Source of the DNA: a virus
Virus record (IMG/VR): IMGVR_UViG_3300021077_000022
Location: 1 to 51,091 of that record
DNA: 51,091 nucleotides
Direction: 5' to 3' (one strand)
The notes under the pieces are model-generated. The model did no database searches and was not told where the DNA came from. It saw only the letters and a program-made list of their open reading frames with translations. Numbering within the stretch: position 1 is the stretch's first letter; each line of letters starts with the position of its first letter. This document shows, one piece after another, positions 32,352 through 51,091 of the stretch. The translations under genes and the position numbers were made by a program.

Positions 32352-32361
32352 GGCATCGTGG

Positions 32362-33252: not shown

Positions 33253-33992
33253 TGGCCACACTGAGCGACGTGTACTCCCGGTACTGCTACGACGTGAGTG
33301 AGGACGGCGGGCTCATCCTCGGATGTCTTACAGTGCAGCAATTCCTTGATCTCGCCAATCTCACCTTGCTCGATTTCCTGAAGCAGACCGGGTGCCTGAA
33401 AAGGGTATTTACGCAAACGATTTTTGCTGGAGTCCCTACGTACACCATCCCAGACGACATCATGAATATCGAGTCGGTATTCCTCGCCGGAAGATGGATC
33501 CCGAAGGCTACCGTGTCCCAACTTAACGAGACTCATCGAGGATGGCGCAGGGAGAACGCGATTCCACAGTACTACTACACCGACAACCTCCCCCCGAAGA
33601 CGATTGGCCTTGCGCCGGCCCCAAACTACAATTCCGTGTACATCCCCGGATCTAGCGAGCCAGACCCTCCGCACGGGCAATACGACTCGTTTAGCATGAC
33701 GGATTCCAGCGGAGCGACGTGGACCCCAGACCAGCACCGAGGATTGTCGATTGTGGGAACCAGGAAGGCCACTACACAAATGGCAACGGTCAATGACCCC
33801 ATCCCCCTTCTTCCCGACGATCTGGCCCTTCTGGGGATTCTTTGGGGAATCCATGAGCGGGTATTTTCCGGGGATAACGAACTCAAGAACGCTCAAGCGG
33901 CGGCCTTCTCGCACGCGCAGTACCAGGAAACGGTGAACGCAATGTCCGCAATCACGGGAGAGCCGGTGGCGCAGGACCAGAAACAGCCATAG
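33252..33992 (+). CDS. Putative connector/adaptor protein 2 (246 aa)
   Basis: TGATG overlap with the previous gene. N-terminal helix (LTVQQFLDLANLTLLDFLKQ), central beta region (FTQTIFAGVPTYTIPDDIMN), and a C-terminal helical end (LALLGILWGIHERVFSGDNE). It resembles the neighbour in plan, suggesting two related connector layers or a connector and tail adaptor. No family proven. Confidence 0.5.
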   Translation: MATLSDVYSRYCYDVSEDGGLILGCLTVQQFLDLANLTLLDFLKQTGCLKRVFTQTIFAGVPTYTIPDDIMNIESVFLAGRWIPKATVSQLNETHRGWRRENAIPQYYYTDNLPPKTIGLAPAPNYNSVYIPGSSEPDPPHGQYDSFSMTDSSGATWTPDQHRGLSIVGTRKATTQMATVNDPIPLLPDDLALLGILWGIHERVFSGDNELKNAQAAAFSHAQYQETVNAMSAITGEPVAQDQKQP

Positions 33993-33999
33993 TCGCGTA

Positions 34000-34028: not shown

Positions 34029-34040
34029 TCGTGTAGGCGC

Positions 34041-34058
34041 CTCTCTCTGCCGTGAGAA
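34041..34058 (+). repeat. 18-nt element upstream of fibre gene
   Basis: CTCTCTCTGCCGTGAGAA, identical to the portal-side copy (13872-13889). Here it directly precedes the GGAGCG ribosome site and lies in the transcribed leader. Confidence 0.6.
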
Positions 34059-34067
34059 GGAGCGTCA

Positions 34068-37000
34068 ATGCGGAAACTCGTCATTCTCTCGATCATTGCG
34101 GTGTCCAACGTGGGACTGCTCGCGCAGTCTATCCAGCGATCCGTCACGGAGACGGTCGTCTATGGGGTTAGCAGTTCTTGGGCTGGTGAGTGTGCCGCTG
34201 GAGTCGTCAGCAACCTAAGCGCTATCAGCCGAAGCAATTACTATCACTCCTTCGGCGTTACGTCCGGTTCGGGATCTTGGTCGGTTTCGCTGAATTATTC
34301 CGATGTGTCCTGCACGGCCGGGCCGTGGACCAGTTTTGGAACTGGATCATCGATTAATCAGGCCAGCAGCCCACCCATCGCCTTCGGGTATGGGAATCAC
34401 AAGTACATTCAGATTGCAATTACCGGGAACGCAATCGGTACGTACACGGCAATCCAGACACCATATATCGCATCGGGCGGCAGTGGTGGGTCTGTTACAT
34501 TTCCAATCACGATTGCTCAAGGCGGAACGAACGGGACAACTTCATCGGGAGCGCTAGCTAATCTGCTGAGCGGAAATTCGCAGGGGACCTATACGAACAA
34601 GGTCCAAATGGCCGGCACGAACTCTGGGGTTTCTGGGGCGCTGTTTTGCGATGATGCAAGCGGCAACGCCACAACCTCCGGGTGTTTGCCGATCAAGATC
34701 GCTCAAGGCGGGACCAACGCCACAACGTCATCGACGGCTCTCGCGAATCTCCTGAGTGGTAACGTTCAGGGAACGTATACCAATAAAGTTCAAATGGCTG
34801 GAACGAATTCCGGGGTCGCGGGGACGCTACTCTGCGATGATGCGAGTGGGAACACGACGACCTCGGGGTGTTCGACCAGCAGTATGAGTTGGCCGGTAGC
34901 GTCTGGCATCGCAGTGTACTCCGGGTCAAGTTCATGGGGGACCTCACTCGCGGTACCATTGCTCCCGGCGTATGGCGGCACTGGGACGAATAACACGGTT
35001 GGTTCGGCGGGACATGTACTCAGGTCGAATGGGTCCGCGTATGTGGATGCGGCACTTCAAGCGGCGGACATTCCTGCATTGAACTACCAGACTCCGATTA
35101 CGACCGGAACTACGTCTCAGTATCTGCGAGGTGATCTATCTCTGGCTCCGTTCCCAACCAATTTAAGTTCGTTCACCAACGGTCCGGGGTTCATATCGGG
35201 GAACCAGTCAATCACTTGGAGTGCGAGCGGAGACATATCCGGTTCCGCTAATGGCACCGTGACGCTCAGTCCATCCCTGACAGTGGCTGGCTTGAAGTCG
35301 GTCCCATTCTGCACTGGGTTCTCTCCCACCGCTGGGCAGGCTTTGGCGTACAGTACGAGCCTTAGCCCGAACCCGTGTTGGACCGCATCGACAGTTTCCG
35401 GTACGGGGGCTAATGCCCTCGGCAACTACTGGGTCTCTAGCGTGACGAATGCTCCGACGAATGCTGTGGTAGTTGGAACCTCGATGTCCACGGGCATCAT
35501 GAAGGTCACGGTTTCCGGTGGCGTGGCAACCCCCTCCACTGCCGTAGCGGGAGACTTCCCGACTCTGAATCAGAGTACAACCGGGAATGCGGCAACCGCG
35601 ACAACCACGGGTCAATTGAATAGTGTGGCGCTCTCTACGCTCGCCACGGGTCCTCTGTGCAATACGAATGCCACCGGAATCCCTTACGCTTGCCTGACTT
35701 CAGATATCAGCACGATGTTCGGATCGACTACGGCACACTACGTTTATGCTTCTCCTAGCGGGGGAGCCGGACTCCCCTCGTTCCGGCTCTTGGTGGCGTC
35801 CGACATTCCGTCACTAGCGTATCTTTCCTCGACTATTCCAGGAAGTTCCGGGCAGTACATCTACAATAATTCCGGGGTTCTCGGCGCGAAAACGATTGCA
35901 GCCGCCGACTTGCCGGCGGCGCTGTCCAGTTCCACGAGCGTAAATGGAACCTCCATCCCGGCATCGCAGACCTTGATCTATTCGGGGGGATCGATCGGCA
36001 CCCCAAGCAGCGGCATCGCAACGAACCTAACGGGGCTTCCCTTGACCACTGGAGTCACCGGGTTGCTCCCATTGGCAAACTTCGCGCAAGGGACCTCCAG
36101 CACGGTATTGATGGGCCAAGGAACCGGAAATGCGTCTTCCTACATATCGGTTTCCAACTGCGGAGATTCGACACACGCCGTGTCGTTTAGCAGTGGGACG
36201 TGGGGATGCCAAGCGATTTCCGCCACGGCCACCGCAGGCGGGTCGAACGGAAATTTGCAGTACAACAACAGCACGGCTATAGGCGGTATCAGTGGGTGGA
36301 ACACGAACGGAACCACCACGATTACAGCGAGCGCCACTTCAGTCCTGGACATGCACGCCGCCACCAACACAGCAGACTTCCTCTTGCCGGGTGCATTTGG
36401 AACTGGAATTTTACGGGTTACTACCAGCACGGGAGCGGTTGGTAGTTCGGAAATCAGCGGAGACTGCACAACGAGTGGATCGAATGCGATCACATGCACC
36501 AAGACTAGCGGAACCGCTTTTACCTCGGCGGCGACCACGGCCATTGGGACAAGCGGGGCAACGATCCCCTTACTGAGTACGGCAAACACTTGGACGTTAG
36601 CGCAAACCTTCTCCGCTGCAATCACATCGCCAAGCTTGGGGACTGGAACGAGTCCGCCATCGGTAGCATGGTTTACTGGAACGGCTGGACTTACCGGAAT
36701 CACATTCGGGACCTGTTCTGGGACGATCCCGTCTGGGTCAGCGTGGCTTTGCGCCAACTCAACCGGAAACGTACTTCAGATGTCTCTTGGGAGTGCTGGT
36801 CTGCTGACGATCCCGCAGATCGCCGACAGTCCAACGGCCAAGGGATTGGCATATTACGATGCGTCTGTAACCACCACGCTGGACTCCTCGGCGGATTTTA
36901 CGATCACTTCTCATACGGTGGCCGGCGGGGCCAGTGCGATTTTCGATATGTCCTCAGCGACAGGAACCGCAGCATTTAAGGTGCCTTCGAATACTTCAAA

Positions 37001-38567
37001 TACCGCATCTTCCGTGGCAACGGTAGATTACGACACCTCCAATTCGAACTATCACGGCTACAATGGAGCCGATTCGATCATCGCCCTGTTCCCAACCGCA
37101 AGCGTTCCTAGCACGGGGCATATGGTTTCGGTGACGGTTTCAAGCGGGAAGGTCACCTTATCGGATGGGGGTTCTATTGGAACCGCAGCCGCAGCCGCCA
37201 CAGCTTCCGCATGTAGTGGGAATAACTGGTCCCAGGGGTGGACTAGCGGATCAAACAATTGCGCTCAGGTAGGCGTCAGTAATCTGAGCGGTTTTGGAAC
37301 GGGAGTAGCCACTTTCCTGGCCACTCCCAGCGGGGCCAATTTGGCGTCTGCCCTTACCTCCGCCGTTCCAATCTCGGTCGGTGGAACTAACGCCACGAGC
37401 GCGGCGGCGGGAACAGTCCCCAATGCCACCAGCACCACAGCCTCTTCGTGGACGCTGACGCCAACGCTGGGTGTTGCATCAACGAGCACCGGAACTTGGT
37501 CTTTCGCTAATGCTGGGAACGCTTTCACTTTTACAATCGGATCATCGGCCAGTACTACGGCCAGCAATACAATTCTGGGGCCTACAGCAGTCATCGCAAG
37601 CGGACACTTTATTGGATGCACCACGTCCACCACGACTTGCACCTTAACCGATGAAGGGGCGGTCGGGTCACTTGCAAATCTTTCTGCGTTGCCGTTTGAT
37701 ACTGGGGCGGGCCACCTCACTACGCCAACGGCGGACCTCAGTGTAACATGGCCAAACACGGCATCTAATGGTCTCATCTTGGCTGGGGGAGCCCCGGCCA
37801 GTTCCGCTGGGAATGGGACGGCGGCGATGCCCTTGCTTACTGTCAATGGGGTTACTGGAGGGGCTACCTCATCGACTGGTACCAATACAGGCGGTACAGG
37901 AAGTTCTCCTGCTATCTCGGCTGGAATAGGAGGTGCGGCTACTGGTTCAGGAACCACCTCCACCGTCGGCGGATCGGGAGGTTCTGTTACCTTAACTGCT
38001 GGTGCTGGGGGAGCTGGGGGAGCCGGAAACGATTCTGGTGGTGCTGGTGGCAACGTTGTACTAACACCCGGAGCAGGAGGTGCAAAGTCAGGTAGTGGAA
38101 CGGCAGGAGCCACTGGAAACGTCCGAATCACCACCTTTGCTACTGCCGGTTTTGTTGCCAATGACGCTTCGGGGAACTTGAGCACCAGCACGTCCCCCAC
38201 AATCCGGCAGTGTACGGAGATATGGGGAGGTTCAGGAACCTCTTTCGCATTGACCGCTGGAGATGATGCAGTGGCTAATATGGGATGCTACAACGGAACA
38301 GGGAAGACTTGGACCCTGACGGCCGTTACCTGCGCCTCCGACAGCGCATCCAATACCACCACGGTGAATCCCACATTCGGAGCTTCCGGAACGGGGACAA
38401 CTATTCTTAGCGGTGCCCTCACTTGTGGCAACAGCAATGCGATGAGTTCGAGCGGGAGTATATCGAATGCGACAATCGCATCGGGGAACGGCATAATCCC
38501 GGCAATGGCAGGGACTCTCACCGGGACTCACATTGTGCTGAATTTCGTATACACAATGGCAAATTAG
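34068..38567 (+). CDS. Giant fibre-like protein with signal peptide (1499 aa)
   Basis: Begins with a Sec signal peptide (MRKLVILSIIAV...LLAQS). The rest is Gly/Thr/Ser/Asn-rich and beta-repetitive. Residues ~145-270 hold two copies of a 62-residue unit (IAQGGTN...TSSGALANLLSG), a common phage tail-fibre repeat, followed by variants such as GGTNATSAAAGTVPNATS. A Gly-rich stretch (about 1265-1350) is collagen-like in appearance. The C-terminus is beta-rich. The protein would form a long trimeric fibre. The signal peptide is unexpected for a virion protein. A palindrome copy overlaps the signal peptide codons. Confidence 0.75.
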   Translation: MRKLVILSIIAVSNVGLLAQSIQRSVTETVVYGVSSSWAGECAAGVVSNLSAISRSNYYHSFGVTSGSGSWSVSLNYSDVSCTAGPWTSFGTGSSINQASSPPIAFGYGNHKYIQIAITGNAIGTYTAIQTPYIASGGSGGSVTFPITIAQGGTNGTTSSGALANLLSGNSQGTYTNKVQMAGTNSGVSGALFCDDASGNATTSGCLPIKIAQGGTNATTSSTALANLLSGNVQGTYTNKVQMAGTNSGVAGTLLCDDASGNTTTSGCSTSSMSWPVASGIAVYSGSSSWGTSLAVPLLPAYGGTGTNNTVGSAGHVLRSNGSAYVDAALQAADIPALNYQTPITTGTTSQYLRGDLSLAPFPTNLSSFTNGPGFISGNQSITWSASGDISGSANGTVTLSPSLTVAGLKSVPFCTGFSPTAGQALAYSTSLSPNPCWTASTVSGTGANALGNYWVSSVTNAPTNAVVVGTSMSTGIMKVTVSGGVATPSTAVAGDFPTLNQSTTGNAATATTTGQLNSVALSTLATGPLCNTNATGIPYACLTSDISTMFGSTTAHYVYASPSGGAGLPSFRLLVASDIPSLAYLSSTIPGSSGQYIYNNSGVLGAKTIAAADLPAALSSSTSVNGTSIPASQTLIYSGGSIGTPSSGIATNLTGLPLTTGVTGLLPLANFAQGTSSTVLMGQGTGNASSYISVSNCGDSTHAVSFSSGTWGCQAISATATAGGSNGNLQYNNSTAIGGISGWNTNGTTTITASATSVLDMHAATNTADFLLPGAFGTGILRVTTSTGAVGSSEISGDCTTSGSNAITCTKTSGTAFTSAATTAIGTSGATIPLLSTANTWTLAQTFSAAITSPSLGTGTSPPSVAWFTGTAGLTGITFGTCSGTIPSGSAWLCANSTGNVLQMSLGSAGLLTIPQIADSPTAKGLAYYDASVTTTLDSSADFTITSHTVAGGASAIFDMSSATGTAAFKVPSNTSNTASSVATVDYDTSNSNYHGYNGADSIIALFPTASVPSTGHMVSVTVSSGKVTLSDGGSIGTAAAAATASACSGNNWSQGWTSGSNNCAQVGVSNLSGFGTGVATFLATPSGANLASALTSAVPISVGGTNATSAAAGTVPNATSTTASSWTLTPTLGVASTSTGTWSFANAGNAFTFTIGSSASTTASNTILGPTAVIASGHFIGCTTSTTTCTLTDEGAVGSLANLSALPFDTGAGHLTTPTADLSVTWPNTASNGLILAGGAPASSAGNGTAAMPLLTVNGVTGGATSSTGTNTGGTGSSPAISAGIGGAATGSGTTSTVGGSGGSVTLTAGAGGAGGAGNDSGGAGGNVVLTPGAGGAKSGSGTAGATGNVRITTFATAGFVANDASGNLSTSTSPTIRQCTEIWGGSGTSFALTAGDDAVANMGCYNGTGKTWTLTAVTCASDSASNTTTVNPTFGASGTGTTILSGALTCGNSNAMSSSGSISNATIASGNGIIPAMAGTLTGTHIVLNFVYTMAN
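34103..34116 (+). promoter_or_regulatory. 14-bp near-palindromic element, copy 10 (intragenic)
   Basis: GTCCAACGTGGGAC inside codons for the signal peptide, about 68 bases after the predicted transcript start of a strong promoter: a possible roadblock operator. Confidence 0.55.
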
Positions 38568-38575
38568 GGGTCTGA

Positions 38576-41134
38576 ATGAAAAAACTGTTAATCGTGTTTC
38601 TGTTCTCGATGACTTCCTGGGCGGCCATATCTCGCGATGGGTACTGCTCTGGAACGACTAACTGTACGGTGGCCGGAGGTGGCGGGAGCGGGGCGTCAGC
38701 GTCTGGGGATCTTATGCTCGCTTTCGCTTATCGTAATGCAAGCACTACTGCCCCAAGCCTGCCTTCGGGATACACCGCAGTGTATAACTCCAGCGGCGGT
38801 TCTACGAATTCATTTCGCGTCTATTGTCACGTGGCATCGGGGACTAGCGACGCTACGGGCACGGCTACGAACGCTACGGGAATTGTTGCCGTCTGGTACA
38901 GCGGAGTTCCCTCATCTGTCACGACGGCTAATTGCGGGACTTCTGGCGTGGCGATTGGTATCGCGGCGGCGGAGAATGCGTCTCAAATCGCCTCTTCTAC
39001 TACCGTGAATTACCGGGGAGTCGCCTTGGCCTCAGGCACTTCAAGTTCATGGGTGGTCGGGTTCATGGGGGACAATGTGGCATCGGACAATTGCACCCCA
39101 AGCACGATGACTGGATTGTTGACGGCGAACCAAGTCACACTGAGCGATACAAATGCGGCAGTGGCAAGTTGGGCCGCTGCCACTTGCTCAGTCACCAGCG
39201 CAACTTATCGGAGCTTCGTCCTGGAGGTTTTGGGCGCAGACTCTGGAGCGGGGAGCGGTACGCCATCTCTGGTGCAGTCTTTTGGCGGGGCTGGACAAAC
39301 AACTTCATTCACTGGTCAATCCACCACACTGAGTGCGGCTATCACGAGCGGGGCCACCACGATGACGATAGCCGCCGCATCAAGCATCGCCAACACAAAC
39401 TCTCTTATTATCGATCCGGGGACCTCTTCGGCCGAGATCGTTTTCGTGTCTTCGGGTGGGGGAACAACTACGTTGACCGTTGTGCGAGGGCAATGGGGGA
39501 CGACGGCGGTCGCTCATGTATCTGGCGCTTATGTAAGCGGGTTCGATCTTGAGACGTTCGGACACAACACCGGACAGGGGAATATGATTGCCCTGATATT
39601 TAATGCAGGTAATAATACGACGGTCCCCCGCGTTTCTGACGACCAGAACAACGCTTATTTCTATGCCGAATGCAACGATACTGGAAACTCGAATGCTCTC
39701 TGGTTGGCATACGCCACGAACGTCGCGGCGGGAGCGAGAAAAGTATACGTTAGTTGGACTAGCGCGGGAGGTCCGGGGAACATTGGAATTATCGGAGCCG
39801 AATTCACCAACGTAGCATTGTCTGCCGCCGTGGAGGCATCCTCGTGCAACTTCCCTGGGACTACGGAAACTGGAGCGCAAACTGCCACTGCCGGCTCGGT
39901 GACCCCAACCAATTCCAGCGATCTTGTGATCCAGGCAACTTCGGCATTGAATACGATTAACCCGACAGCGGGCTTTACGTACACGGCTGGTAGCCAGAGC
40001 AACATAACTTGGGCTTTATTTTCCGCTGAGGACGCTTACGACGTCGGAGCGCAATGGGGGGTGTACTCTTCCACTGCGGCCATGAATGCCAGCATGACGC
40101 AGAATGCCGGATCTACAAGCGCCGGATTTCAGAGTCTGGCTGTGTTCTTTAGGCGTTCTTCTGCCGGGACATCCGCTCCAGCCGGGATGCAGATACTGTC
40201 TAAGAAATCCGTCAATGTGGATGTTTCCGCCCCATGGAACAGCAATCCAAGAACGGTGCAGGTGCCCTGCCCAACATCTACGAATCTTGTCGTTTTGGAG
40301 TATCAGGTAGGGCAATTCTCGAATGGGCAGGATGTTTATAACGTTACATCTAGCGGGAATACATTTCTGCCAATGTCTCCGGTTACGATTAGTTTGAGTT
40401 CAGGGATAAACAGTAGTGTGACCTCCATGTCGGTGTCTTCTGGAGCGTCTGTCACCAATAACGACTACTTGCAGATAGATGGAGGATTGACTACTAACGA
40501 GATTGTCCAAGTTACAGCCGGAGGGGGGACGTCTACGCTGACAATTACTCGCGGTCAAATGGGGACTACTGGTCAGTCGCATTCCGCATCGGCCAGAATC
40601 ACGGATATAACTCCAGGGTGCGCATCGGAGAGCTGCACCCATAACTATTACGCGGGAGGGGCGTCTTGGGGGCCTACTTCTACGCTCACGATGAACTTCT
40701 CGGCAATGGCAGATGCAGTGGACTGGGCCGAGATTTACTGCGTTAGCGGGGCAGCCTCTTCCCCATACGATAAAACGGTGGATGCAACCGGGAGCCAGGG
40801 AGCGGCTGGGAATCTTACGTTGGTCTCCCTCTCACCGTCCACCTCTAATGGGATCGTATTTGTGGATGGGTCTCAAGCGCTGAATACCACCAACGGATTC
40901 ACTACCGCTGGGATGTATTATGACGGATGCTACTGGTCTAACGAGGCAACCGGTTCAGCGGGGTGCGCGGAAAACAATCCTTGGGGTCACTATGCCAATC
41001 CCGGAACCAGTTCCTACACGTTCATCGCCACTCAAGTGAGTGGAACCACGGCGGCGGGTACCTGGGATGCCCAGGCCGATGCGTTTAAGTGGAACAACGG
41101 AGTAAAACGTCGTCGAGTTGAGGTCGTGCATTAA
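38576..41134 (+). CDS. Exported repeat-rich fibre/adhesin-like protein (852 aa)
   Basis: AGGGG precedes ATG 38576. Signal peptide MKKLLIVFLFSMTSWAAIS. Several beta modules follow. Two related motifs occur near residues 240-320 and 595-680: a T-L-S-x-A-I-x-S strand, then EIVFVSSGGGTTTLTVVRGQ in the first and EIVQVTAGGGTSTLTITRGQ in the second. This Ig-like/phage 'RGQ-GTT' unit is common in fibre and tail-surface proteins. Cysteines are frequent and may form disulfides after export. Likely surface-exposed; specific ligand unknown. Confidence 0.65.
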   Translation: MKKLLIVFLFSMTSWAAISRDGYCSGTTNCTVAGGGGSGASASGDLMLAFAYRNASTTAPSLPSGYTAVYNSSGGSTNSFRVYCHVASGTSDATGTATNATGIVAVWYSGVPSSVTTANCGTSGVAIGIAAAENASQIASSTTVNYRGVALASGTSSSWVVGFMGDNVASDNCTPSTMTGLLTANQVTLSDTNAAVASWAAATCSVTSATYRSFVLEVLGADSGAGSGTPSLVQSFGGAGQTTSFTGQSTTLSAAITSGATTMTIAAASSIANTNSLIIDPGTSSAEIVFVSSGGGTTTLTVVRGQWGTTAVAHVSGAYVSGFDLETFGHNTGQGNMIALIFNAGNNTTVPRVSDDQNNAYFYAECNDTGNSNALWLAYATNVAAGARKVYVSWTSAGGPGNIGIIGAEFTNVALSAAVEASSCNFPGTTETGAQTATAGSVTPTNSSDLVIQATSALNTINPTAGFTYTAGSQSNITWALFSAEDAYDVGAQWGVYSSTAAMNASMTQNAGSTSAGFQSLAVFFRRSSAGTSAPAGMQILSKKSVNVDVSAPWNSNPRTVQVPCPTSTNLVVLEYQVGQFSNGQDVYNVTSSGNTFLPMSPVTISLSSGINSSVTSMSVSSGASVTNNDYLQIDGGLTTNEIVQVTAGGGTSTLTITRGQMGTTGQSHSASARITDITPGCASESCTHNYYAGGASWGPTSTLTMNFSAMADAVDWAEIYCVSGAASSPYDKTVDATGSQGAAGNLTLVSLSPSTSNGIVFVDGSQALNTTNGFTTAGMYYDGCYWSNEATGSAGCAENNPWGHYANPGTSSYTFIATQVSGTTAAGTWDAQADAFKWNNGVKRRRVEVVH

Positions 41135-42768
41135 TGAAATTCGCAATCGCATTCCTCATCGTGTGCGCTGATGCTTTAGCGGCCGGTGGCTCCTGCCCCA
41201 GCGGGGCGAACTATCTCAACGCCACTACTGGGGCACTGGTTACATTATCCAGTCTTGGTGTGACGAGTTGCTATTACGTTTCCTCTGGTGGGGTCGATAC
41301 CGCATCGGGAACTAGCGAGTCAACCCCATGGCTTCACGCTCCGGGGATGGCTAACTGCTCGAACAACTGTGCGTCCGCAAGCGTAAACGGCGGGGTTGGC
41401 ATTATCCTTCGAGGCGGCGACTCATGGCATTTCTCGGGACGAGGAACCCCAGTTGGACTTCCTTGGGGAATCACCGGGATGGTGGGAAGTGCTGGATCTC
41501 CAAACTATTTCGGCGTCGATCCGACGTGGAGCGGTGGGTCTTGGGCTCGCCCGGTGATGCAGGGAGATAACGCGCACAGCACGTCTGGAGTCTCCAGTTG
41601 CGCGCATCAGGATACAAGTTGGTACGCGCAGGTTGAGGCAGACGAGCATTACGTCATTGTGGACAATTTTGAGTGGGATGGCATGTGTTGGGGGGGGTAT
41701 CAGAATCTACCATCGTATCTTACAGTGCAAAGCTACGGCGGAGCGGCCGACCACATCATCATCGAGAACCAGTACTTCCATGGATGGACGCATGTGACGT
41801 TTTCCTCCTGTAACGCTGGCGTAAGCGGGAATTGCGATGGAGGGACCGGAGTTACGGGAGGGAGCAATCAAACCGAGGCCGTGGGAGACCAATTTGTTGC
41901 CAACGTGGTGGATGGATCGGATTCCGACCCAACGAGTTTCGATGCGTGGTATGGAGATTGCTACGATATACACAGCAGCGTATTCCGGTACGCATCGAAC
42001 GGGGTGATTTGCAATGACATGCATACTTTCCACGATAACCTTATCGAGCATATCGCGGAATCTACCGACGGGCAGACCCACTCGAATGGATTCGAGTTCA
42101 ACTCCGAGTACCCGGCTACGAACACGATCTACAATAACCTCATCCGGCACACAACAGCCGCCGTTACGTGCTGGGTAAACCCAGCCCAAGTAGACTACGA
42201 TTGGAACAACGTCGTGTACGACACCGTTGGTCAGGGATGGGATATCGATACGACGGGTGGCGGCACCGCGATGTATTTCTACAACAACACCATCGAGGGT
42301 GGCGGGGTTGGATGTACCGCTGGGAGTTATTGTCCGGGGGGAAATTGGGAGGGAATACTAAATAATAACGTCTTCATCAATGGAGGAGTGGTCGGCACGC
42401 CAACCTCTCAGACCAATTCCGTCGTGTACTCTAGCGACGCCGCCGCTAACACTGCCGGTCTTTCGGCGTCCAATAACTACTCCCCGGACAGCCAGAACTG
42501 CAATGGGGTAAATTCCCCGATATGCCCCGTGGGTAACGGAAATAATCTGACATCATCTTGGGCCGTAGGGTATTCCACTGCTGCCACAACGAGCGCCTGC
42601 ATGTATCATCACATCACGCACTCTGTAAGTTGCCCGGCGATTACCGCCATATCCAGACCGTCCAGTGGAGCGTGGGATGTTGGGGCGTATATGTATCAGG
42701 CTAGCGGTTCGGGAGGGGTAACGCGTGCTGGTCCAGTGATTGTAACTGGTCCAGCGGTACAGCACTAA
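41134..42768 (+). CDS. Exported right-handed beta-helix protein (544 aa)
   Basis: TAATG overlap with the previous gene. Signal peptide MKFAIAFLIVCADALAAG. The body has the look of a parallel beta-helix: repeating short strands with N-x-x-F/Y motifs (VIVDNFEWDG, IIIENQYFHGWT, YDIHSSVFRYASNG, FHDNLIEHI, YNNLIRHTT, FYNNTIEGGG). It ends SGAWDVGAYMY, typical of secreted beta-helix proteins. Many Cys pairs suggest disulfides. Related folds cleave polysaccharides, so a depolymerase or binding role is possible; no catalytic residues were identified. Confidence 0.7.
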   Translation: MKFAIAFLIVCADALAAGGSCPSGANYLNATTGALVTLSSLGVTSCYYVSSGGVDTASGTSESTPWLHAPGMANCSNNCASASVNGGVGIILRGGDSWHFSGRGTPVGLPWGITGMVGSAGSPNYFGVDPTWSGGSWARPVMQGDNAHSTSGVSSCAHQDTSWYAQVEADEHYVIVDNFEWDGMCWGGYQNLPSYLTVQSYGGAADHIIIENQYFHGWTHVTFSSCNAGVSGNCDGGTGVTGGSNQTEAVGDQFVANVVDGSDSDPTSFDAWYGDCYDIHSSVFRYASNGVICNDMHTFHDNLIEHIAESTDGQTHSNGFEFNSEYPATNTIYNNLIRHTTAAVTCWVNPAQVDYDWNNVVYDTVGQGWDIDTTGGGTAMYFYNNTIEGGGVGCTAGSYCPGGNWEGILNNNVFINGGVVGTPTSQTNSVVYSSDAAANTAGLSASNNYSPDSQNCNGVNSPICPVGNGNNLTSSWAVGYSTAATTSACMYHHITHSVSCPAITAISRPSSGAWDVGAYMYQASGSGGVTRAGPVIVTGPAVQH

Positions 42769-45700
42769 TGGCAGACATAAAGACGGCGAAATTCCAATTC
42801 GGGTCTAAGGGGCTCACCACGAAGGAGTCTGGGACTCAACTGACCGACGGCCAGTATCGATCGATCAGCAACGTGGAGGTCAAGCAGGAGGGGTCGATTT
42901 CCAGCCGATCCGGGATGAGTTTCCTCGGATCTACCCCGCTCAGTTCGGGGCAGATTGCGTATGCGATCCAGAAGCTCGTAAACTCCCCAGGTGAGGCTCC
43001 AGAAACCCCCGCGAGCAATCTCCGCTATTTTGGCCTGACCGCCATACTGCCGGGTCTGTCGAATGCCCTGTGGAGAACTGTCAACTATACCGTTTTCACC
43101 AAGGTAGCCAATTACATAAATACCCTTGCTGGAGGGTTCAGCAAGGCGTTTAAGTTGGCCGCCTATGCCGCAGGGAATGTTGGTGGAAGTTGGGCATTCA
43201 TTGCCAGCGAACTTCAGATGCTCAAGGACAATGGGAACGCCCCGTATTCCTCCACATTGCCCAACGGAAACGTACTCCACAATTGGGGCATTCTGCCGGC
43301 GGCTGGAGTTGCCCTGGCTTCCGCTTACGACAATGTTTCCTCCCAGGGTAGAGTAATCTCGGTCGTATTCACGGCCGGCAGTGATGATTGCTTCATCCCA
43401 TACGGGACATGGACTACATCTAGCGGAGCGAGTGGGACCGGGGCTAGTGGAACGTTCACCTCTCAAGTTAGGTCAGGGGACACCGCTGGGAGCTTGACGT
43501 CATTCACTATCGTTAACCCAGGAAACGGGTACTCCTCTTTAGCGGCTAACCAGATCTTGTTTCAAGGTGGCGGCGGTATCGTCGGCAACCCTGGGCAGAG
43601 CACATTGGTGTTCACGGTTGGAGGGACAGGGGACCTTAACGGCGGAACCAGCACCAGCCCCAGTCAGTCCACCGCTTACGATTATCGATTTACGTATCTT
43701 GCGACGGACACCAATGCCGAAGGTAATCCTTCGCAGACCATGCTGACGGACAGCGCGGTCACACAATCCGGGTTTGGCGGAGACGGGTTGACATATTCCG
43801 GTCAGCCTATTTCTGTCTGCTACGAAGCCGTTAAGGTGTTGGTGTACGGGAGCACGGACCCTCAGATTGCGAAGATCAACATTTACCGGAGGGGCGGTCT
43901 CCTTTATGACGCTTGGAGGTTGGTGGGTTCCGTAAATAACCCAGGCACATTCACTCAGGTTTCATTCATCGATAGCGTCGCCGATGTGGATCTGGAGCCG
44001 AGCGGACTACTTGAGACCGACAACGACCCTCCGGTACCCAGTGCTCCTTCCAACCCGCTCACGGGTTCGTTCAGCGGATCTGTCGGTGCTGGCGTGCAGA
44101 CGGTATCCCTCAGTCTTGGATACCTGACAAATAATAACACTGCTGGAGGGACGCTCATCAACGCGGGCACGCTTGTTCACCTGAACTATAACAACCCTGA
44201 GGATGTCATCATTCAGCAGGTTGTTAGCCGTACGCAATTCGTAGCATTCTTTCAACACAACCACCCACAGGACCCGAATGGGCATTACGCGGACTACGAG
44301 ATCGACACGCTATGCAATCAGGCGTGCTTCACGGTTGTCCCGTATCAGCAATTTCTGCTTGTGGCGGGAGACCCCAATAACCCACACTACCTCTACCGGA
44401 GCAAGGGAGACCAGCCGGAATCTTTTTCCGTCTCTCCGGCCGATGGGTCGGTCTCTGTGGTCACGGCCGGAACGCCATCGAATCCCATTCAGGACATTTG
44501 CATCTTTCGCGGTCAGATCGTCACGCTTAATCTATACTCCATCTTCGAGACATTAATTTCAGAGGGATCTCTGGTTCAGCCAGTCCAGGTGGGTAACCGG
44601 GGAGTTGTGGGACGCCGGGCGTGGTGTCAGACGGATACGGAAATCTGGTTTCTGGCCGTGGATGGGGTCTACTCTTGGGATGGTGGAAACCTGCGCAAGC
44701 GGTCCGAGTCCATCGATTCTATTTTCCATGGAGGAGGGACAGCATCTGGGGCTACTTTCGGGCAGGAAGTAAACGGATTTCCCCCACTAGACACAACCAA
44801 TTGGGCACAGTGTCAAATGGAAAACGTCCGTGGCGAGATCCATTTAGTCTACGAGGATACGGTTGGGAATTTAGGCCACTTGATCTGTGAGCCTCGTTTT
44901 GGAGATCGATGGAGGCCTTTTGTTACATCCTTCGCTTCAATCATCCCTGGGGTATTCTATACGGAGCCAGATACTGGGTCCATGGTGGGCATCGCATCGG
45001 TCACGGGAGGGAGCAATGTAGACTGCATCAAGTATGACCAGGAGGTGATCCAAGGCGGAATCAACTACACGAGCGACTTATTCACCACCGACCCTACCAC
45101 TCAAGGATACCCAATCCCATTCTCGATCACTCTCCCGTGGTTCGACTTCGGAGCACCGGAAACCCTTAAGGTCTTGGAGGAGGTGCTTCTGGATCTAGAC
45201 GTCACCGGAAACACCGCCACGGGATCTCTCAGCATCGATGTCCTACAGAATTTCTCAGACACGGCAGTCAGCACAATCACGGTCCCCCTGCCCTTGACGG
45301 ACTATGCTTCCGGAACGAATACCGGACGAAAGCTAATTTCCCTGCTTCCTGGAATGCAGAACGTGAGTCCGCCTACGGTTTACGGGCAGCAGGGAAGGTC
45401 ATTCTCTTATCGGATTTACGGCAGCGCCTATCCCGCTAGGATGACATTCTTCTCGCTCATCATGAAGTACTGCGATGTTGGGGCGCAGACCACCAGCGGA
45501 GCAACGGACTGGATGAATCTTGGGTGTAAGTTCGACAAGAAGCTTTACCAGATGACGGTGGAGTTCGACACCCAGGGGATTGACCAAACCATAGTCATGG
45601 ACGTTCGCACTGGGAGGGACTCGTCCCTGTACGGAGAGGCGATACAGAGCTTCCGCTTGAACTGCCCAGTCATCAACGGTCCGAGCCGGGCATTGAAGAC

Positions 45701-48700
45701 ATTCCCGATCGCCGACGGGATAATTGTTAAGGAGGTTCGCTTGCGGCCATCGGGTCCTCCTCCCACCGGATTTACTTACAACACCGCATCCACTCTGTTC
45801 TTCCGCATTCTCAACGTGGACTTCGTAAAGGAGGATTACCCACCAGATATCTGCGCATTCACCCCATGGGAAGACGGAGGCTACGAATACGATAAGTACG
45901 CCAATCAGATTGACCTGGAGGTGAACACAAACAACTACCCCATCACCGTCAACGTGCAGGCCGACGGATCTAACGTGACCGTAGGCGGCATTCCATGGAC
46001 TTTCACTGTAACCACCACTGAAAGTGACAGGCGCCGAAATGTTACTCTCCCGCCGGGGTTGGTTGGGAAGAAGTGGAGGCTGTTCGTTAACACTACTCAG
46101 TCGTCGATCGCCAGTTCGGGAGGGATGTTCCAGTTGTTCAGCCACCGCTTCTCTTTCCAGAATGCCGATAAGGGAGAAGTTGCGCATTCGATGGATTGGG
46201 ATGACCTTGGGCACCCCTACGATAAGTATCTGAGAACGGTCACAGTTGAGTGGGACTTGTCTCTTGCGCCCGGAGGAACCCAAGTAATACTTCAACTGGA
46301 CATCATTAACGGAATTGGCGGCGGCACCGAGGTGTCCAGCGTGGGACAATTCACATTGACCGGGAATCGAAGCAAGGCCACATTCCCATTATCGGCTGAC
46401 TTGATCGCCAAGTTGATTCGCCTGTATCCGGTTACCTCTCCTCTGCCAATTGGGTTTAAGGAGTGGAAATACTCATTTGAGAAAACCGACTACCCTCCTG
46501 ACATTATTTACACGACGGATTGGAAGGTAGCCCAGGGTCCTAACGAGGAAAACCCTTCGTGGCTATGGCTCGATATCGACACCGCTAACGTGCCGGCCAG
46601 TGTTAACCTCGTTAACGAATCCGGGGTTGTCGCCGTTACGGCCAACCACAGGGGGACCATCGATCTAAGAAAGAACAGTTACCCAATCCCCGCTGACAAC
46701 TTCGGGAGAATGTGGCGCTTGGTAATGAGCAACGGGGTTGGCGGGAAAATACAAGTGTTCGATTGGGGGGTTTCCCGGTGGGCTCCATTCTCCGAAGGTT
46801 CCCCGGAGACTCCCCCGGATAACGTATTGTGGACTCCCTTTCAATTGGCGAATAGCCAAGACCAGCAGAACCCAAACTGGGTCTGGGTGGATATGGACAC
46901 GGCCGCCGTAGGGGCCAGCATTCAACTGGTGAGTAACAATGGGGTGGCTATGACGTTTCTGCACTTCGGAGTTCCGCAGGATAGGAAACAGTCGTATCCA
47001 GTCCCAGTAGACACATTCGGTCAAATGTGGCGGCTTCTCATCACGCCGGGTACGAATGGAAAGTCCAAACTTTACAATTGGGGAATCTCTCGGTGGAAGC
47101 CATACGACTTAGCGGGCGATGAAATCCCGCCACTCACGGTCCTCTGGACTCCATGGAGAGACGCGGAGACAAGCAACGACAAGAACCCAACTTGGGTAGT
47201 CGTGGATGCCAATACGGGAGGCATAGCGGCTTCGGTTCAATTAGTCAATGAGTCCGGGGCGCAATTCACCTTCAGCCATACGGGAACTGCCGACTCCAGG
47301 AAGTCCATCTACGCTATCCCGGCGGACCTGTTCGGTAAGATGTGGAGACTCCTTATCGCGCCGGGTTCTGGCGGATTTTTCCAGCTATTCCAGTGGGGGT
47401 TGGCGCGGTGGGCTCCATTTGAGGAAGGCGGCGCACATGACCCCCCCGAGGTTCTATTGTGGACGCCGTGGAATACATTCGGTCATCCCTACGCAAAGAC
47501 GGCCAAAAACCTCATTCTCACCGTAGATACCGAAGGGGCAAACGCTTCCGTGAAACTACAAACTGGAGAATCCGGAACTGTCGAGACCTTCACGGTTAAT
47601 ACGACGTATGACAATCGTAGGGTCGTTTTTCCGATTCCGGCCGACACGGTAGGAAAGCAGTGGAGGTTGCTGGTCACGCCAACCGGGAAGTTCAAGTTGT
47701 GGGATTGGAGTCTAGACAAGATCGACTATCCGGCCGACTCGGTTCTGTTCACCGAGTGGAAGGACGCCCAAACCAACGACGACAAGAACCCAACCTGGGT
47801 CTGGGTGGACGCGGACACTGGGGGAGTGGCCGGCTCCGTGGCGCTAATGAACGAGAACGGGAACGTGTTCAGTTTCAGTCATACGGGTACCGTCACCAGT
47901 CGGAAGGTCAATTATGCAATACCCGCAGACATCTTCGGAAAAATGTGGCGGCTCATCATCACCCCAGGTTCCAATGGAAGATTCCAGTTGTTCGATTGGG
48001 GAATCATGCGGTGGTCTCCATTTGAGGAGGGCGGAGCGATCGATCCGCCAGACCAAATCCTATGGACGCCATGGAACAGTTTTGGGTGGCCGTACGAGAA
48101 GATCGCCCGGAATCTGATAATGACGGCAGATACTGAGGGTTCCGTATCTATCGTGAATTTACAGACTGGAGAGTCCGGGACGGTCGCATCCTTCAATATC
48201 AATACTAGCTACGATGATCGCAGGGTAGTTCTCGCTTGCCCGTCTAATCTAATCGGTACGCAATGGAGGCTCCTGATTTCCGCGTCGCCAACCTTCAAAT
48301 TATGGGATTGGAGTCTGGACTGCATTAAAGAGCCGGCGGCGGTGACATGGTTTGATACATACGAGCAAACGCTTGGGTACAAGTTCTGGAAGTTACAGAA
48401 GCAGTTCTGGTTAATGTATTCGTGCTCCTCATACATTTCCGCAACAATCACCACGGATACTGGAGTGTACTCGTTCGTATTGCCTCCCCATGCCACAAGA
48501 GCGGAGGAAAGGATGCTGCTGCCAAGTGTGTTTGGGCTTGGGTTAAACAAGACTCGAATATGGAGGCTTCAACTGTCTTCATCCTCATCATTCAAGCTAT
48601 ATCAGGAGGGATCGGGGGTAGAGTTCCTTCCGCTCGGGGCGGATCGCCACGCTTCTTATAAGCAGATGACTATCAGTGAGATGATGACTCTTGGCGAGGG

Positions 48701-48710
48701 TGGAGATTAG
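42768..48710 (+). CDS. Giant tail/nozzle-like protein with beta repeats (1980 aa)
   Basis: N-terminal ~600 residues resemble a short-tailed phage nozzle/tubular protein: FGSKGLTTKESGTQLTDGQY, ISNVEVKQEGSISSRSGMS, and later CWYxxT-like EIWFLAVDGVYSWDGGN. From about residue 900 to 1900 run ~10 beta-sandwich repeats of two kinds. One carries the pattern NPTWVxVDxDTGG ... HTGTxxSRK ... IPADxFGKMWRL ... FxWGxxRWxPFEEGG ... LWTPW. The other carries NLIxTxDTEG ... LQTGESGTV ... YDxRRVV ... GxQWRLL ... FKLWDWSLD. No signal peptide. Likely a virion tail component with a long outer stalk. One palindrome variant lies inside. Confidence 0.65.
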   Translation: MADIKTAKFQFGSKGLTTKESGTQLTDGQYRSISNVEVKQEGSISSRSGMSFLGSTPLSSGQIAYAIQKLVNSPGEAPETPASNLRYFGLTAILPGLSNALWRTVNYTVFTKVANYINTLAGGFSKAFKLAAYAAGNVGGSWAFIASELQMLKDNGNAPYSSTLPNGNVLHNWGILPAAGVALASAYDNVSSQGRVISVVFTAGSDDCFIPYGTWTTSSGASGTGASGTFTSQVRSGDTAGSLTSFTIVNPGNGYSSLAANQILFQGGGGIVGNPGQSTLVFTVGGTGDLNGGTSTSPSQSTAYDYRFTYLATDTNAEGNPSQTMLTDSAVTQSGFGGDGLTYSGQPISVCYEAVKVLVYGSTDPQIAKINIYRRGGLLYDAWRLVGSVNNPGTFTQVSFIDSVADVDLEPSGLLETDNDPPVPSAPSNPLTGSFSGSVGAGVQTVSLSLGYLTNNNTAGGTLINAGTLVHLNYNNPEDVIIQQVVSRTQFVAFFQHNHPQDPNGHYADYEIDTLCNQACFTVVPYQQFLLVAGDPNNPHYLYRSKGDQPESFSVSPADGSVSVVTAGTPSNPIQDICIFRGQIVTLNLYSIFETLISEGSLVQPVQVGNRGVVGRRAWCQTDTEIWFLAVDGVYSWDGGNLRKRSESIDSIFHGGGTASGATFGQEVNGFPPLDTTNWAQCQMENVRGEIHLVYEDTVGNLGHLICEPRFGDRWRPFVTSFASIIPGVFYTEPDTGSMVGIASVTGGSNVDCIKYDQEVIQGGINYTSDLFTTDPTTQGYPIPFSITLPWFDFGAPETLKVLEEVLLDLDVTGNTATGSLSIDVLQNFSDTAVSTITVPLPLTDYASGTNTGRKLISLLPGMQNVSPPTVYGQQGRSFSYRIYGSAYPARMTFFSLIMKYCDVGAQTTSGATDWMNLGCKFDKKLYQMTVEFDTQGIDQTIVMDVRTGRDSSLYGEAIQSFRLNCPVINGPSRALKTFPIADGIIVKEVRLRPSGPPPTGFTYNTASTLFFRILNVDFVKEDYPPDICAFTPWEDGGYEYDKYANQIDLEVNTNNYPITVNVQADGSNVTVGGIPWTFTVTTTESDRRRNVTLPPGLVGKKWRLFVNTTQSSIASSGGMFQLFSHRFSFQNADKGEVAHSMDWDDLGHPYDKYLRTVTVEWDLSLAPGGTQVILQLDIINGIGGGTEVSSVGQFTLTGNRSKATFPLSADLIAKLIRLYPVTSPLPIGFKEWKYSFEKTDYPPDIIYTTDWKVAQGPNEENPSWLWLDIDTANVPASVNLVNESGVVAVTANHRGTIDLRKNSYPIPADNFGRMWRLVMSNGVGGKIQVFDWGVSRWAPFSEGSPETPPDNVLWTPFQLANSQDQQNPNWVWVDMDTAAVGASIQLVSNNGVAMTFLHFGVPQDRKQSYPVPVDTFGQMWRLLITPGTNGKSKLYNWGISRWKPYDLAGDEIPPLTVLWTPWRDAETSNDKNPTWVVVDANTGGIAASVQLVNESGAQFTFSHTGTADSRKSIYAIPADLFGKMWRLLIAPGSGGFFQLFQWGLARWAPFEEGGAHDPPEVLLWTPWNTFGHPYAKTAKNLILTVDTEGANASVKLQTGESGTVETFTVNTTYDNRRVVFPIPADTVGKQWRLLVTPTGKFKLWDWSLDKIDYPADSVLFTEWKDAQTNDDKNPTWVWVDADTGGVAGSVALMNENGNVFSFSHTGTVTSRKVNYAIPADIFGKMWRLIITPGSNGRFQLFDWGIMRWSPFEEGGAIDPPDQILWTPWNSFGWPYEKIARNLIMTADTEGSVSIVNLQTGESGTVASFNINTSYDDRRVVLACPSNLIGTQWRLLISASPTFKLWDWSLDCIKEPAAVTWFDTYEQTLGYKFWKLQKQFWLMYSCSSYISATITTDTGVYSFVLPPHATRAEERMLLPSVFGLGLNKTRIWRLQLSSSSSFKLYQEGSGVEFLPLGADRHASYKQMTISEMMTLGEGGD
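46334..46347 (+). promoter_or_regulatory. 14-bp element, divergent copy 11 (intragenic)
   Basis: GTCCAGCGTGGGAC, one change from consensus, in the giant tail gene. Weakest member of the set. Confidence 0.35.
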
Positions 48711-48712
48711 CG

Positions 48713-49417
48713 GTGCAAGTACCATTCACTTGTGTCCAGACGGACTTCACGGGACCCTGTACGCGGTTTAATACCCTCATCCAGAGAATCTGCAACAGCA
48801 TCGACACAAGTTCCGGAGTGATTCTGGCAGACGTCTACGCCAATAGAAGTAACTACTCAGCAGCATCGAACCAGGGAAGCCTGTTTGTGGCAACCGATCA
48901 GTCCGTCATCTACCAGTCTCAGGTGCAGAGTGGGCAAGCGCAGTGGAAGTACGCTGGCGGAATCATCTTCGGGACGATTTCGGGAAACGGGGGCCTGCTA
49001 TCCACCGATGCCGGGGTTCTTTTACTGACCAGCGCATCCCCGTATAAGCTTTACCGCTGGAGCGGTTCACAGTGGGTTGACGTAAGCCCTGGCACGACGG
49101 GATCTGGCAGCGGGAGTGGATCAGGATCAGGCGGCGCAGCGAATATACTCACCTACCAGAAAACTCTCGCGAGCGGTTCGGTCGCGGTGGCATCCCCAAG
49201 CTCTCCGGTGGCGAACACGATGCTGTTGGTTGTACTCACTCAGGATGCCACTGGCGGTTGGCAGCCAACGTGGGATGCAACTTATGTGGGATATCCGAAT
49301 TCTCTATCACAAACAAAGCACGGAACTTCCTGCATATTCCTTTTCGTCGGACTAGTGGTTTCAGGGACGGGGTACTGGGTCTTGATTTCCCAACCCGTGA
49401 TAGGATTGACGTTATGA
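48713..49417 (+). CDS. Tail-associated protein (234 aa)
   Basis: GTG 48713 with GGTGGAG upstream. Two beta-rich halves are joined by a SGSGSGSGSGG linker near residue 135. The N-terminal half (QGSLFVATDQSVIYQSQVQS) resembles tail-tip or fibre-attachment modules; the C-terminal half is small and hydrophobic. No signal peptide. Precise role unknown. Confidence 0.5.
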   Translation: MQVPFTCVQTDFTGPCTRFNTLIQRICNSIDTSSGVILADVYANRSNYSAASNQGSLFVATDQSVIYQSQVQSGQAQWKYAGGIIFGTISGNGGLLSTDAGVLLLTSASPYKLYRWSGSQWVDVSPGTTGSGSGSGSGSGGAANILTYQKTLASGSVAVASPSSPVANTMLLVVLTQDATGGWQPTWDATYVGYPNSLSQTKHGTSCIFLFVGLVVSGTGYWVLISQPVIGLTL

Positions 49418-49425
49418 GGTGGATT

Positions 49426-51091
49426 ATGAAAAGCAAGTTGGTATCTGGGCTGTTTCTGGCAGTTGGACTCTTGGCTCAGAGTAACGCTCCGCAATTGGAC
49501 TCGACGACTGGATCGGTGATTCTCCCAAACTTGTCCACCGCATCAGTGCAGTTCAACTACGCGAAGTCTGGTCCAACTCCGTCCTACTGGAGCATCCTCG
49601 GGTACCCTGTCAGTAGCTTGGTGTTCAGTGACAACGTACCGGGGACAAGCACGACGAATCCGATCCTAGCGCTTTCCACCGACAACACCCATGCCAACGT
49701 TACCATTTCCGGGGTGAGCGGACAGGCGTCTGACTTATTGGACATCCAAATCACCCCAGGAAACCCAAACGCCGCGTGGGTGGACAACCAAGGCCATCTC
49801 ACTGTGGGAATTTATAGTGGTAGCAAGCCAAGTGTGATGGAGAATATGAACACGTATGGGATTAATTTCGGGATGTACGGCGATGGGTCCGGGACTGGAT
49901 TTTTGAAATGGTACGCTTCGGGAGGTTCCAGCGTCAACTGGCAGATGACAGGGGCGGGAACCGGAGACCTCATGATGTACGATTCCGTGGGAGACACTCC
50001 GTTTGACCTAACCACTAACACTGGGACCGGCAATGCCCTGAATCTAGTGGCATCGCTGAATGTCGAGCCGTCCTATGTCGGGATAGCCACGTTCCCTACT
50101 TTTATTGTCCAGAACGGATCAAGGACGGCCACGGTAGCGGAGTTCTGGCACACCGCTCGCGGCTTCACTGGGGCGGCAGACTTATGGATTGACAATGCCG
50201 GCGGAACGCATATTGCGAACTGCGTCAGTGGGTGTAGCGGTGGGACTTCGCAGTGGACCACAATCACATCTCCGAACGGAATCTATTATTCAGCGGGAGG
50301 GGTTCTGATCGGAACCGCAACCCCCCCCACCACATTCGAAAGCCTAAGTGTGGTCTCGGGAAGCCTTGGCCTTTACGGCGACGGATCTTCCACGGGATTT
50401 CTCAAGTTCTATTCGGGGAATACTTTTGAGGGTCAGGTGTCCGCATCCTCGGGGGCTTTCGTTTTCCAGAATAGCGTTGGTGGAACGATGCTTTCCATAT
50501 CCACCGGGTCTAACCTCTCTTATGGGACGCTAAACGTTATTGGAAATTCGAGCGAGCCGACAGGATTCCCTACATTTCTTGTTCAGCAGCCGGGGAGTTC
50601 CGGGTCGAACACTGCGGAGTTTTGGCACGGAAGTCGCGGGGCACCTGGAGCGGCAGATTTATATATCGATTCTTCCGGTGGAACCCATATTGCAAACTGC
50701 GTTAGTGGATGTGGCGGTGGAACGCAGTGGACCACAATCTCCTCACCCACTGGGATCTACTACACCAACAAAGTCCTCATTGGGGTCTCCACTTGGCCGG
50801 GTACGGCAGAGACATTGAATGTGACCGGAGCTTCGGGTGGGACGATTGGCCTTTACGGCGACGGATCTTCCACGGGGCTCCTGAAGTTTTATAACGCCGC
50901 AGGGACTACGATGGAATCCCAAGTGAGCGGGTCAACGGGATCGATCGTTTTCCAGAATAGCGTTGGTGGAACGATGCTGTCTGTGTCCACGGGAATTAAC
51001 CTGTCATACGGAACATTGGACGTTATCGGAAACTCCAGCGAGCCGACAGGATTCCCTACATTTCTTGTTCAGCAGCCGGGGAGTTCCGGGT
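49426..51091 (+). CDS. Exported repeat-containing fibre-like protein, 3' end cut by window
   Basis: GAGGTGG precedes ATG 49426; the frame stays open to the window end (555 codons). It starts with a Sec signal peptide (MKSKLVSGLFLAVGLLAQS). The body is built of ~162-residue repeats: each has GLYGDGSSTGFLKFY, FQNSVGGTMLS, then EPTGFPTFLVQQPG, a FWHGSRGAPGAADLYID strand and a THIANCVSGC-x-GGTxxWTTI end. Two full and one partial copy are visible, with period 486 bp between the last two; DNA matches there are almost exact (for example 50551-50607 and 51037-51091). Likely a surface/fibre protein; the C-terminus is outside the window. Confidence 0.75.
   Translation, partial: MKSKLVSGLFLAVGLLAQSNAPQLDSTTGSVILPNLSTASVQFNYAKSGPTPSYWSILGYPVSSLVFSDNVPGTSTTNPILALSTDNTHANVTISGVSGQASDLLDIQITPGNPNAAWVDNQGHLTVGIYSGSKPSVMENMNTYGINFGMYGDGSGTGFLKWYASGGSSVNWQMTGAGTGDLMMYDSVGDTPFDLTTNTGTGNALNLVASLNVEPSYVGIATFPTFIVQNGSRTATVAEFWHTARGFTGAADLWIDNAGGTHIANCVSGCSGGTSQWTTITSPNGIYYSAGGVLIGTATPPTTFESLSVVSGSLGLYGDGSSTGFLKFYSGNTFEGQVSASSGAFVFQNSVGGTMLSISTGSNLSYGTLNVIGNSSEPTGFPTFLVQQPGSSGSNTAEFWHGSRGAPGAADLYIDSSGGTHIANCVSGCGGGTQWTTISSPTGIYYTNKVLIGVSTWPGTAETLNVTGASGGTIGLYGDGSSTGLLKFYNAAGTTMESQVSGSTGSIVFQNSVGGTMLSVSTGINLSYGTLDVIGNSSEPTGFPTFLVQQPGSSG

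Follow-up and report, generated by a model that had tools for sequence, protein, structure and literature searches.

Signal peptides on the large tail-fibre-like proteins of a soil phage group that includes two cultured Acidobacteriota phages

Signal peptides and fibre-like genes of the window

The window analysed here comprises the whole virus record IMGVR_UViG_3300021077_000022 (51,091 bases, 46 called genes), and the present report concerns five of its genes, four of them large and fibre-like, whose products begin with a predicted signal peptide (SP) of the Sec type. The first gene (34068..38567, +) encodes a fibre-like protein of 1499 amino acids with GGTNGTTSS-type repeats and 24 Cys; its SP, specified by 19 codons (34068..34124, +), has a predicted cleavage site before Gln20 and precedes a conserved mature N-domain spanning approximately residues 20-135. 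It is followed by genes for an SP-bearing fibre-like protein of 852 amino acids with 14 Cys (38576..41134, +) and for an SP-bearing protein of 544 amino acids with 17 Cys in its mature part (41134..42768, +), which we take to be beta-helix-like from its motifs, searches of Pfam, PHROG and NCBIfam having given no match. The fourth fibre-like gene (49414..51091, +) ends at the contig end and has a second in-frame ATG at 49426, a start from which an SP is still left. The fifth (21772..22083, +) encodes an SP protein of only 103 amino acids, whose mature part is charged, helical-looking and equipped with a CxxC motif.

The N-termini, with a slash at the cleavage site that we placed, read MRKLVILSIIAVSNVGLLA/QSIQ (34068), MKKLLIVFLFSMTSWA/AISR (38576), MKFAIAFLIVCADALA/AGGS (41134), MRWIMKSKLVSGLFLAVGLLA/QSNA (49414) and MKTLIFSLLISLPLLA/ADAP (21772). 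The start positions of 34068, 38576 and 41134 appear well fixed: each is the earliest possible start downstream of a stop, 38576 begins 8 bp past the preceding gene, 41134 shares 1 bp with the gene before it, and AAGGAG lies upstream of the 34068 start. An earlier note on this DNA had assigned export signals to these five genes, placing the fourth start at 49426, and had described two tail-gene neighbours as lacking them; both statements are confirmed, the N-termini of 42768 (MADIKTAKFQFGSKG) and 48713 (VQVPFTCVQTDF) having been read directly.

SPs were called with a home-made, rule-based program that scores a basic n-region, a hydrophobic core and small residues at -3/-1, with a cut-off of at least 30. 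As a check, it found LamB, MalE, MalM, TolB, CpoB and ModA in 80 kb of Escherichia coli and Lom, Bor, Rz and RexB in phage lambda, and made no call among the 37 genes of T7; it also fires on certain membrane proteins, e.g., MalF and MalG of E. coli. The SP prediction that the earlier note had proposed gave scores of 37.0, 39.0, 38.5 and 39.7 for 34068, 38576, 41134 and 49414, and 36.9 for 21772 from its own ATG, all five being above 30. Among the 46 genes a score of at least 30 was reached by four, precisely the large ones named above, with 21772 called only from an internal ATG. Amino-acid composition alone accounts for little of these scores, because when residues 2-45 were shuffled 1000 times, the values of 34068, 38576, 41134, 49414 and 21772 were attained only 41, 1, 27, 7 and 18 times, respectively. 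A fibre-like composition as the trigger of the caller was likewise ruled out, by the absence of calls at 188 internal Met and 3288 pseudo-starts inside 20 fibre-like proteins and by the SP-less fibres of lambda, a Bradyrhizobium phage and the cultured phages Tunturi 3 and Tunturi 4. The window proteins combine the basic n-region, hydrophobic core and small -3/-1 residues of Sec/signal peptidase I (SPase I) substrates with the lack of a lipobox, and Sec export of the SP-bearing fibres is a well-supported prediction.

The large genes adjoin tail genes without SP. Upstream lie a tail adaptor-like gene (33252..33992, +; SU10_adaptor PF24175) and a second, weaker SU10-adaptor-like one (32587..33252, +), while downstream of 41134 are a nozzle-like gene (42768..48710, +; 1980 amino acids, with C-terminal repeats of about 100 amino acids) and a small tail gene (48713..49417, +) resembling G008 11801-12904 of a related phage. 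The several nozzle repeats, all in the C-terminal half, are tryptophan-rich, and the related nozzles are open frames of 1084-1797 amino acids; the nozzle-like protein is a possible SP-less receptor binder. Searches of the window SP proteins against NCBIfam, Pfam and PHROG returned nothing informative: none of the four large proteins matched a Pfam family or a PHROG tail family, the last of them reaching only a sub-threshold DUF1589, and the match of 38576 to phrog_7578 (E=0.0012) leads to a family of unknown function. The structure model of 41134 had a predicted local distance difference test (pLDDT) value of 30.7, and no fold was deduced from it.

Occurrence in related and cultured phages

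The comparison covered the window and stretches of six related uncultured phages (G003, G008, G011, G012, G014 and G415), with "large fibre-like" denoting proteins of fibre-like composition and at least 300 amino acids. SPs are present on 18 of 20 such proteins versus 20 of 406 other genes (p=2.5e-19), and the two exceptions also have hydrophobic N-termini (MHRLLPLFLFLSPAWA/TQYY and MILLSLVLLSLSW). An additional SP-bearing protein of 647 amino acids (G008 17974-19917) stands outside this count, probably dropped because of the start chosen for it and the filter for overlapping genes. Under alternative criteria the SP fraction of fibre-like proteins ranged from 17/19 to 20/30; with a cut-off of 150 amino acids, the SP-less fibre-like set includes small genes beside the capsid gene as well as 48713. 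No large fibre candidate without SP was found in the group besides the nozzle and the 48713 type. Among control phages, SPs occurred on none of one fibre-like protein in lambda, none of two in the Bradyrhizobium phage and the single one of Mx8, and T7 and crAss001 have no protein of fibre-like composition.

To keep the SP from influencing what was retrieved, the 34068 family was searched with its mature domain, and an SP was found in all eight loci (five different sequences, not counting the window). An alignment of five sequences shows a drifting hydrophobic core, with Lys3 and Gln20 (+1) unchanged throughout. In the window, G008, G011 and G415 the gene comes after the adaptor and ahead of the nozzle, and in G012 it directly precedes the nozzle, adaptors in the relatives being assigned by N-terminal likeness. 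Likeness to 34068 stops about 260 residues in and the C-terminal part is unrelated, a restriction to the N-terminal part that resembles fibres whose attachment domains are conserved. The family has the tail-module position, low-complexity shaft, conserved N-terminus and variable C-terminus of tail fibres, and 38576 and 41134 resemble them by position and composition only. The export signal persists and the exported bodies turn over, because none of 10 related records contains a relative of 38576 or 41134, and in G008 a different SP gene (17974) occupies their place.

The same arrangement is found in cultured phages, of which the first 50 kb each of Tunturi 2, 3 and 4 and 15.5 kb of Tunturi 1 were scanned. 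Tunturi 1 and 2 (PP887698 and PP885685) are podoviruses of Tunturiibacter, Acidobacteriota, according to their description (PMC11924767). Both carry SP-like starts on gp12, gp13, gp14, gp16 and gp17, downstream of the tail protein gp11, with N-termini such as MKKFIQLALLFILPAAASA/QTAA and MKWLSRLGLILLWPVAGFA/QTTG; gp13 of Tunturi 2 scores 29.3, narrowly below the cut-off. Like the window phage, they have SPs on all large fibre-like genes beside a tail gene, and their terminase, portal, major capsid protein (MCP) and nozzle are distant homologues of its own (in Tunturi 2, terminase at 24% and, with it, portal-like, capsid and nozzle proteins at 24-30% identity); unlike the backbone, the SP fibres of Tunturi 2 show no sequence match to those of the window at E<=1e-4. 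By the same composition rule, SPs were absent from the four fibre-like proteins of Tunturi 3, a podovirus with the same listed host (X5P2) as Tunturi 2, and from the only one of Tunturi 4. A derivation of the trait from the host was rejected, since Tunturi 2 and 3 differ in SPs although their records name one and the same host strain. In the main text of the description the word "signal" occurs twice, the instance displayed being a tool name in the references, and its genome-results and discussion sections do not mention signal peptides (PMC11924767). The occurrence of the pattern in related phages, which the earlier note had suggested looking for, is shown by the 18 of 20 proteins in the group and by Tunturi 1 and 2: the whole soil-phage group, two cultured phages included, is marked by SPs on almost all of its large tail-fibre-like proteins.

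Small SP proteins of about 100 amino acids with a charged, helical-looking body recur near the SP fibres (G008 33564, G008 40489, G014 51877 and G415 24271). One of them (G008 33564-33902) is a homologue of window 21772, with 56% over 80 amino acids and a conserved CxxC near the C-terminus (CPTC/CENC); gp15 of Tunturi 2 is similar in size and place, but without an SP call. These small proteins are candidate periplasmic folding or trimerisation helpers for the fibres.

The related records were retrieved with the window MCP (19067..20068, +; phrog_9953), and IMG/VR scans with the terminase (gene at 10222) and the mature 34068 domain also gave relatives; none came to light with the nozzle, 41134, 38576 or Tunturi 2 gp12 as query, and the nozzle and the four large SP proteins had no match among 50,697 phage records. 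The host is probably an acidobacterium, because a scan of 84,980 species, one genome each, returned its sole relative within a Candidatus Sulfotelmatobacter metagenome-assembled genome (MAG) and the capsid matched in three of 396 genomes of a sample confined to Acidobacteriota. The contig concerned (JASIKQ010000143.1, 3.7 kb, binned in that MAG) carries head genes of the phage group. Between capsid and tail adaptor genes lies a conserved block of what are presumably glycosyltransferase- and methyltransferase-like genes (window 22113-26885, G008 29195-33233 and G014 32872-36950), which may modify the virion or the host surface. Tandem repeats of 9/18/27 bp with related units (GGGCGAGCG and TTGGGCGAG) occupy window positions 26931-27073 and 31953-31992.

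Cysteine, exposed glutamine, anchors and comparable systems

The frequent Cys of 38576 (14) and 41134 (17), which the earlier note had taken as a sign of export and disulfides, fits export and recurs more widely. Eight SP-less fibres have 0-1.14 Cys per 100 amino acids, whereas 19 group fibre-like proteins (17 of them called SP-bearing) have 0.6-3.1 and four from Tunturi 2 have 1.5-2.6 (p=7e-5 for these 23 fibres of SP-bearing phages against the eight). Even Cys counts are found in 23 of 33 SP proteins versus 141 of 310 others (p=0.007), a weak difference that hinges on the predicted cleavage sites.

The motif [AG]Q at residues 13-31 is present in 25 of 37 phage SP proteins versus 42 of 382 others; in the window, Gln stands at +1 in 34068 and 49414, and not in 38576, 41134 and 21772. 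On the host side, the motif was found in 10 of 30 Acidobacteriota SPs and in 7 of 19 SPs of the Sulfotelmatobacter MAG (stretches L100-L119 and L147-L166, five of which the two samples share). Exposure of Gln by SPase I, the Q-rule, is described in passages of PMC5837995 as specific to Bacteroidetes; Gln at +1 in 7 of the 19 SPs of the MAG suggests a Q-rule-like bias beyond that phylum.

No outer-membrane or surface anchor, be it an autotransporter domain, PEP-CTERM motif, lipobox or outer-membrane barrel, was found in the window SP proteins. PEP-CTERM motifs were absent from the 17 complete group fibres, and one lipobox-like motif was seen among group fibres, in G014. Outer-membrane display of the fibres is unlikely, and type II secretion may occur.

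Several known systems share part of this organisation. Lom and Bor of lambda, recognised by the same caller, are exported phage-encoded proteins, but they are small outer-membrane proteins and not fibre-like. Coat proteins of filamentous phages, pIII for example, are virion proteins with Sec signals; these phages are extruded and assembled at the membrane, unlike the tailed window phage. The Myxococcus phages Mx8 and Mx9 have an MCP of the same distant family and an SP ahead of a tail-fibre-like domain (p64, L098 36781-37854, and p14, L142 5383-6459), a domain that begins at the N-terminus, without SP, in Stenotrophomonas phage BUCT555 and Bradyrhizobium phage ppBjS10J-1; in contrast to the window phage, they have a single such gene, near an antirepressor gene. 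Nixviridae phages of Porphyromonas gingivalis carry five SP genes of unknown function predicted to obey the host Q-rule, but the passages concerned do not describe them as fibres (PMC10367356). The Pantoea protein WceF is, according to an excerpt of its description, an exported beta-helix trimer with a tailspike fold; it shares an export signal with the window fibres but is a bacterial gene product with a Tat signal and no virion (PMC7949094). No description of tail fibres with Sec signals as a group trait was found in the open-licence literature, preprints excluded.

Place of assembly and alternative explanations

Tailed-phage assembly is classically cytoplasmic, whereas in this group parts expected inside the cell until it bursts probably leave through its membrane beforehand. 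The reading to which we incline, giving it nearly an even chance, is that these are genes for long tail fibres and tailspike-like depolymerases belonging to the phage itself, made as pre-proteins that are exported and dock on the tails at lysis. Translated late with the tail operon, they would be exported by the host Sec translocase and trimmed by SPase I, often exposing an N-terminal Gln, a step for which the sequence-based prediction is well supported. In the periplasm they would fold and acquire disulfides disallowed in the cytoplasm, as the observed Cys enrichment suggests, perhaps assisted by the small SP coiled-coil proteins encoded alongside. Without anchors, the fibres would wait there during the cytoplasmic assembly of capsids, adaptors and nozzle. 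Lysis would then mix the compartments, and the conserved mature N-domain would dock the fibres onto finished tails, so joining them to the virion; the variable C-terminal part would bind or degrade the host surface and surplus fibres would remain free. Late joining of fibres to finished particles is known from the P22 tailspike. More generally, and with a chance somewhat short of even, this may be a tailed phage lineage with a two-compartment virion, its capsid and tail tube cytoplasmic and its Sec-exported fibres disulfide-bonded, perhaps N-terminally cyclised, served by phage-encoded periplasmic helpers and joined only at lysis. Virion fibres are favoured because of the fibre-like architecture, the place in the tail operon, the conserved N-domain with variable C-terminal part and the few SP-less receptor-binding candidates; export is favoured because of SPs, Cys and Gln at +1, and a stop in the periplasm because no anchor was found.

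A number of points weigh against virion fibres. Neither profile nor fold searches found a recognisable fibre or attachment domain in the large SP proteins of the window, and the model of the 34068 N-domain is mediocre (pLDDT 68.7) and without a significant fold match. Clusters of SP fibres are situated away from the tail module (G014 69932-82692, G011 30678-34044 and G415 21273-28472), 4 of 17 complete group fibres contain an internal hydrophobic stretch, and receptor binding could instead fall to the nozzle repeats or to the 48713 type. The SPs rest on the home-made caller, the score of 34068 was equalled by 41 of 1000 shuffles, and no virion proteomics was found for any of these phages. To our knowledge, tailed phages do not take parts from the periplasm.

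Some of these points agree with a rival that we regard as a real but lesser possibility, namely that the proteins are free effectors, Sec-exported to bind or degrade polysaccharides and never part of the virion, which clear exopolysaccharide for the progeny, shield receptors or act as post-lysis decoys while nozzle and 48713-like proteins bind the receptor. The distant SP clusters speak for it, as do domains resembling those of exported enzymes: a Pel9A-like beta-helix with choice-of-anchor Q on G014 77644, LamG with DUF2341 on G011 30678, and, in Tunturi 2, a chitobiase C-terminal domain with beta-helix on gp17 and a weak pectate lyase on gp14. WceF offers the precedent of an exported enzyme with a tailspike fold (PMC7949094), and the P. 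gingivalis phages that of Q-rule SP genes of unknown function (PMC10367356). Against free effectors stand the 34068 family, with its conserved N-domain, variable C-terminus and position between adaptor and nozzle, the matches of SP protein G011 32071 to collagen-type tail-fibre PHROGs, and the predicted export of nearly all large fibre candidates, a plaque-forming isolate included, which leaves few candidates for receptor binding. The earlier note had proposed export during infection, for example to coat the host surface or block other phages. As a prediction, export itself is well supported: relatives keep the SPs, the proteins are rich in Cys, Gln occurs at +1 just as it does in the probable hosts, and cultured Acidobacteriota phages show the pattern too. 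Coating or blocking is possible, but neither an autotransporter domain nor a PEP-CTERM motif nor a lipobox was found in the window fibres, and genuine tail fibres would account no less well for the conserved N-terminus, the variable C-terminus and the tail-operon place.

It is unlikely that the hydrophobic N-termini stay uncleaved, tethering fibres at the inner membrane for tail maturation or remaining in the virion as an attachment motif: several cores are long and hydrophobic and certain small SP proteins resemble membrane anchors, but the good -3/-1 residues, the excess of [AG]Q, Gln at +1 that is invariant despite core drift, and the Cys enrichment point to cleavage and export. Decidedly improbable is the capture of host adhesins or secreted enzymes retained as phage cargo, which the earlier note had also considered. 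Some of the proteins do have exported-protein domains and SPs resembling those of Acidobacteriota; for the 34068 family, however, the suggestion lacks support, its N-domain finding no match among 396 Acidobacteriota genomes, nor 41134 among 247 (both searches without a positive control), and the family sitting in a conserved tail module with synteny across divergent phages. That the SPs are an artefact, whether of N-termini hydrophobic by chance, of misplaced starts or of chimeric contigs, is scarcely credible: prediction is rule-based only and the fibre-like class is defined by composition, but the caller is silent inside the same proteins, and SPs are kept in independent records and in annotated coding sequences of sequenced isolates.

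A signal peptide is consequently unsafe ground for excluding a phage protein from the virion or for calling it a host gene. The choice between virion fibres and free effectors is directly testable, since Tunturi 1 and 2, with SP fibres, and Tunturi 3, with none, are listed on one cultured host strain. Acidobacteriota are abundant soil bacteria with scarcely any phage biology, and a lineage in which almost every fibre-like protein is exported would either break the rule of cytoplasmic assembly or deploy a secretome of tail-fibre-like enzymes during infection; either outcome would alter the reading of receptor binding, superinfection exclusion and biofilm effects in these bacteria.

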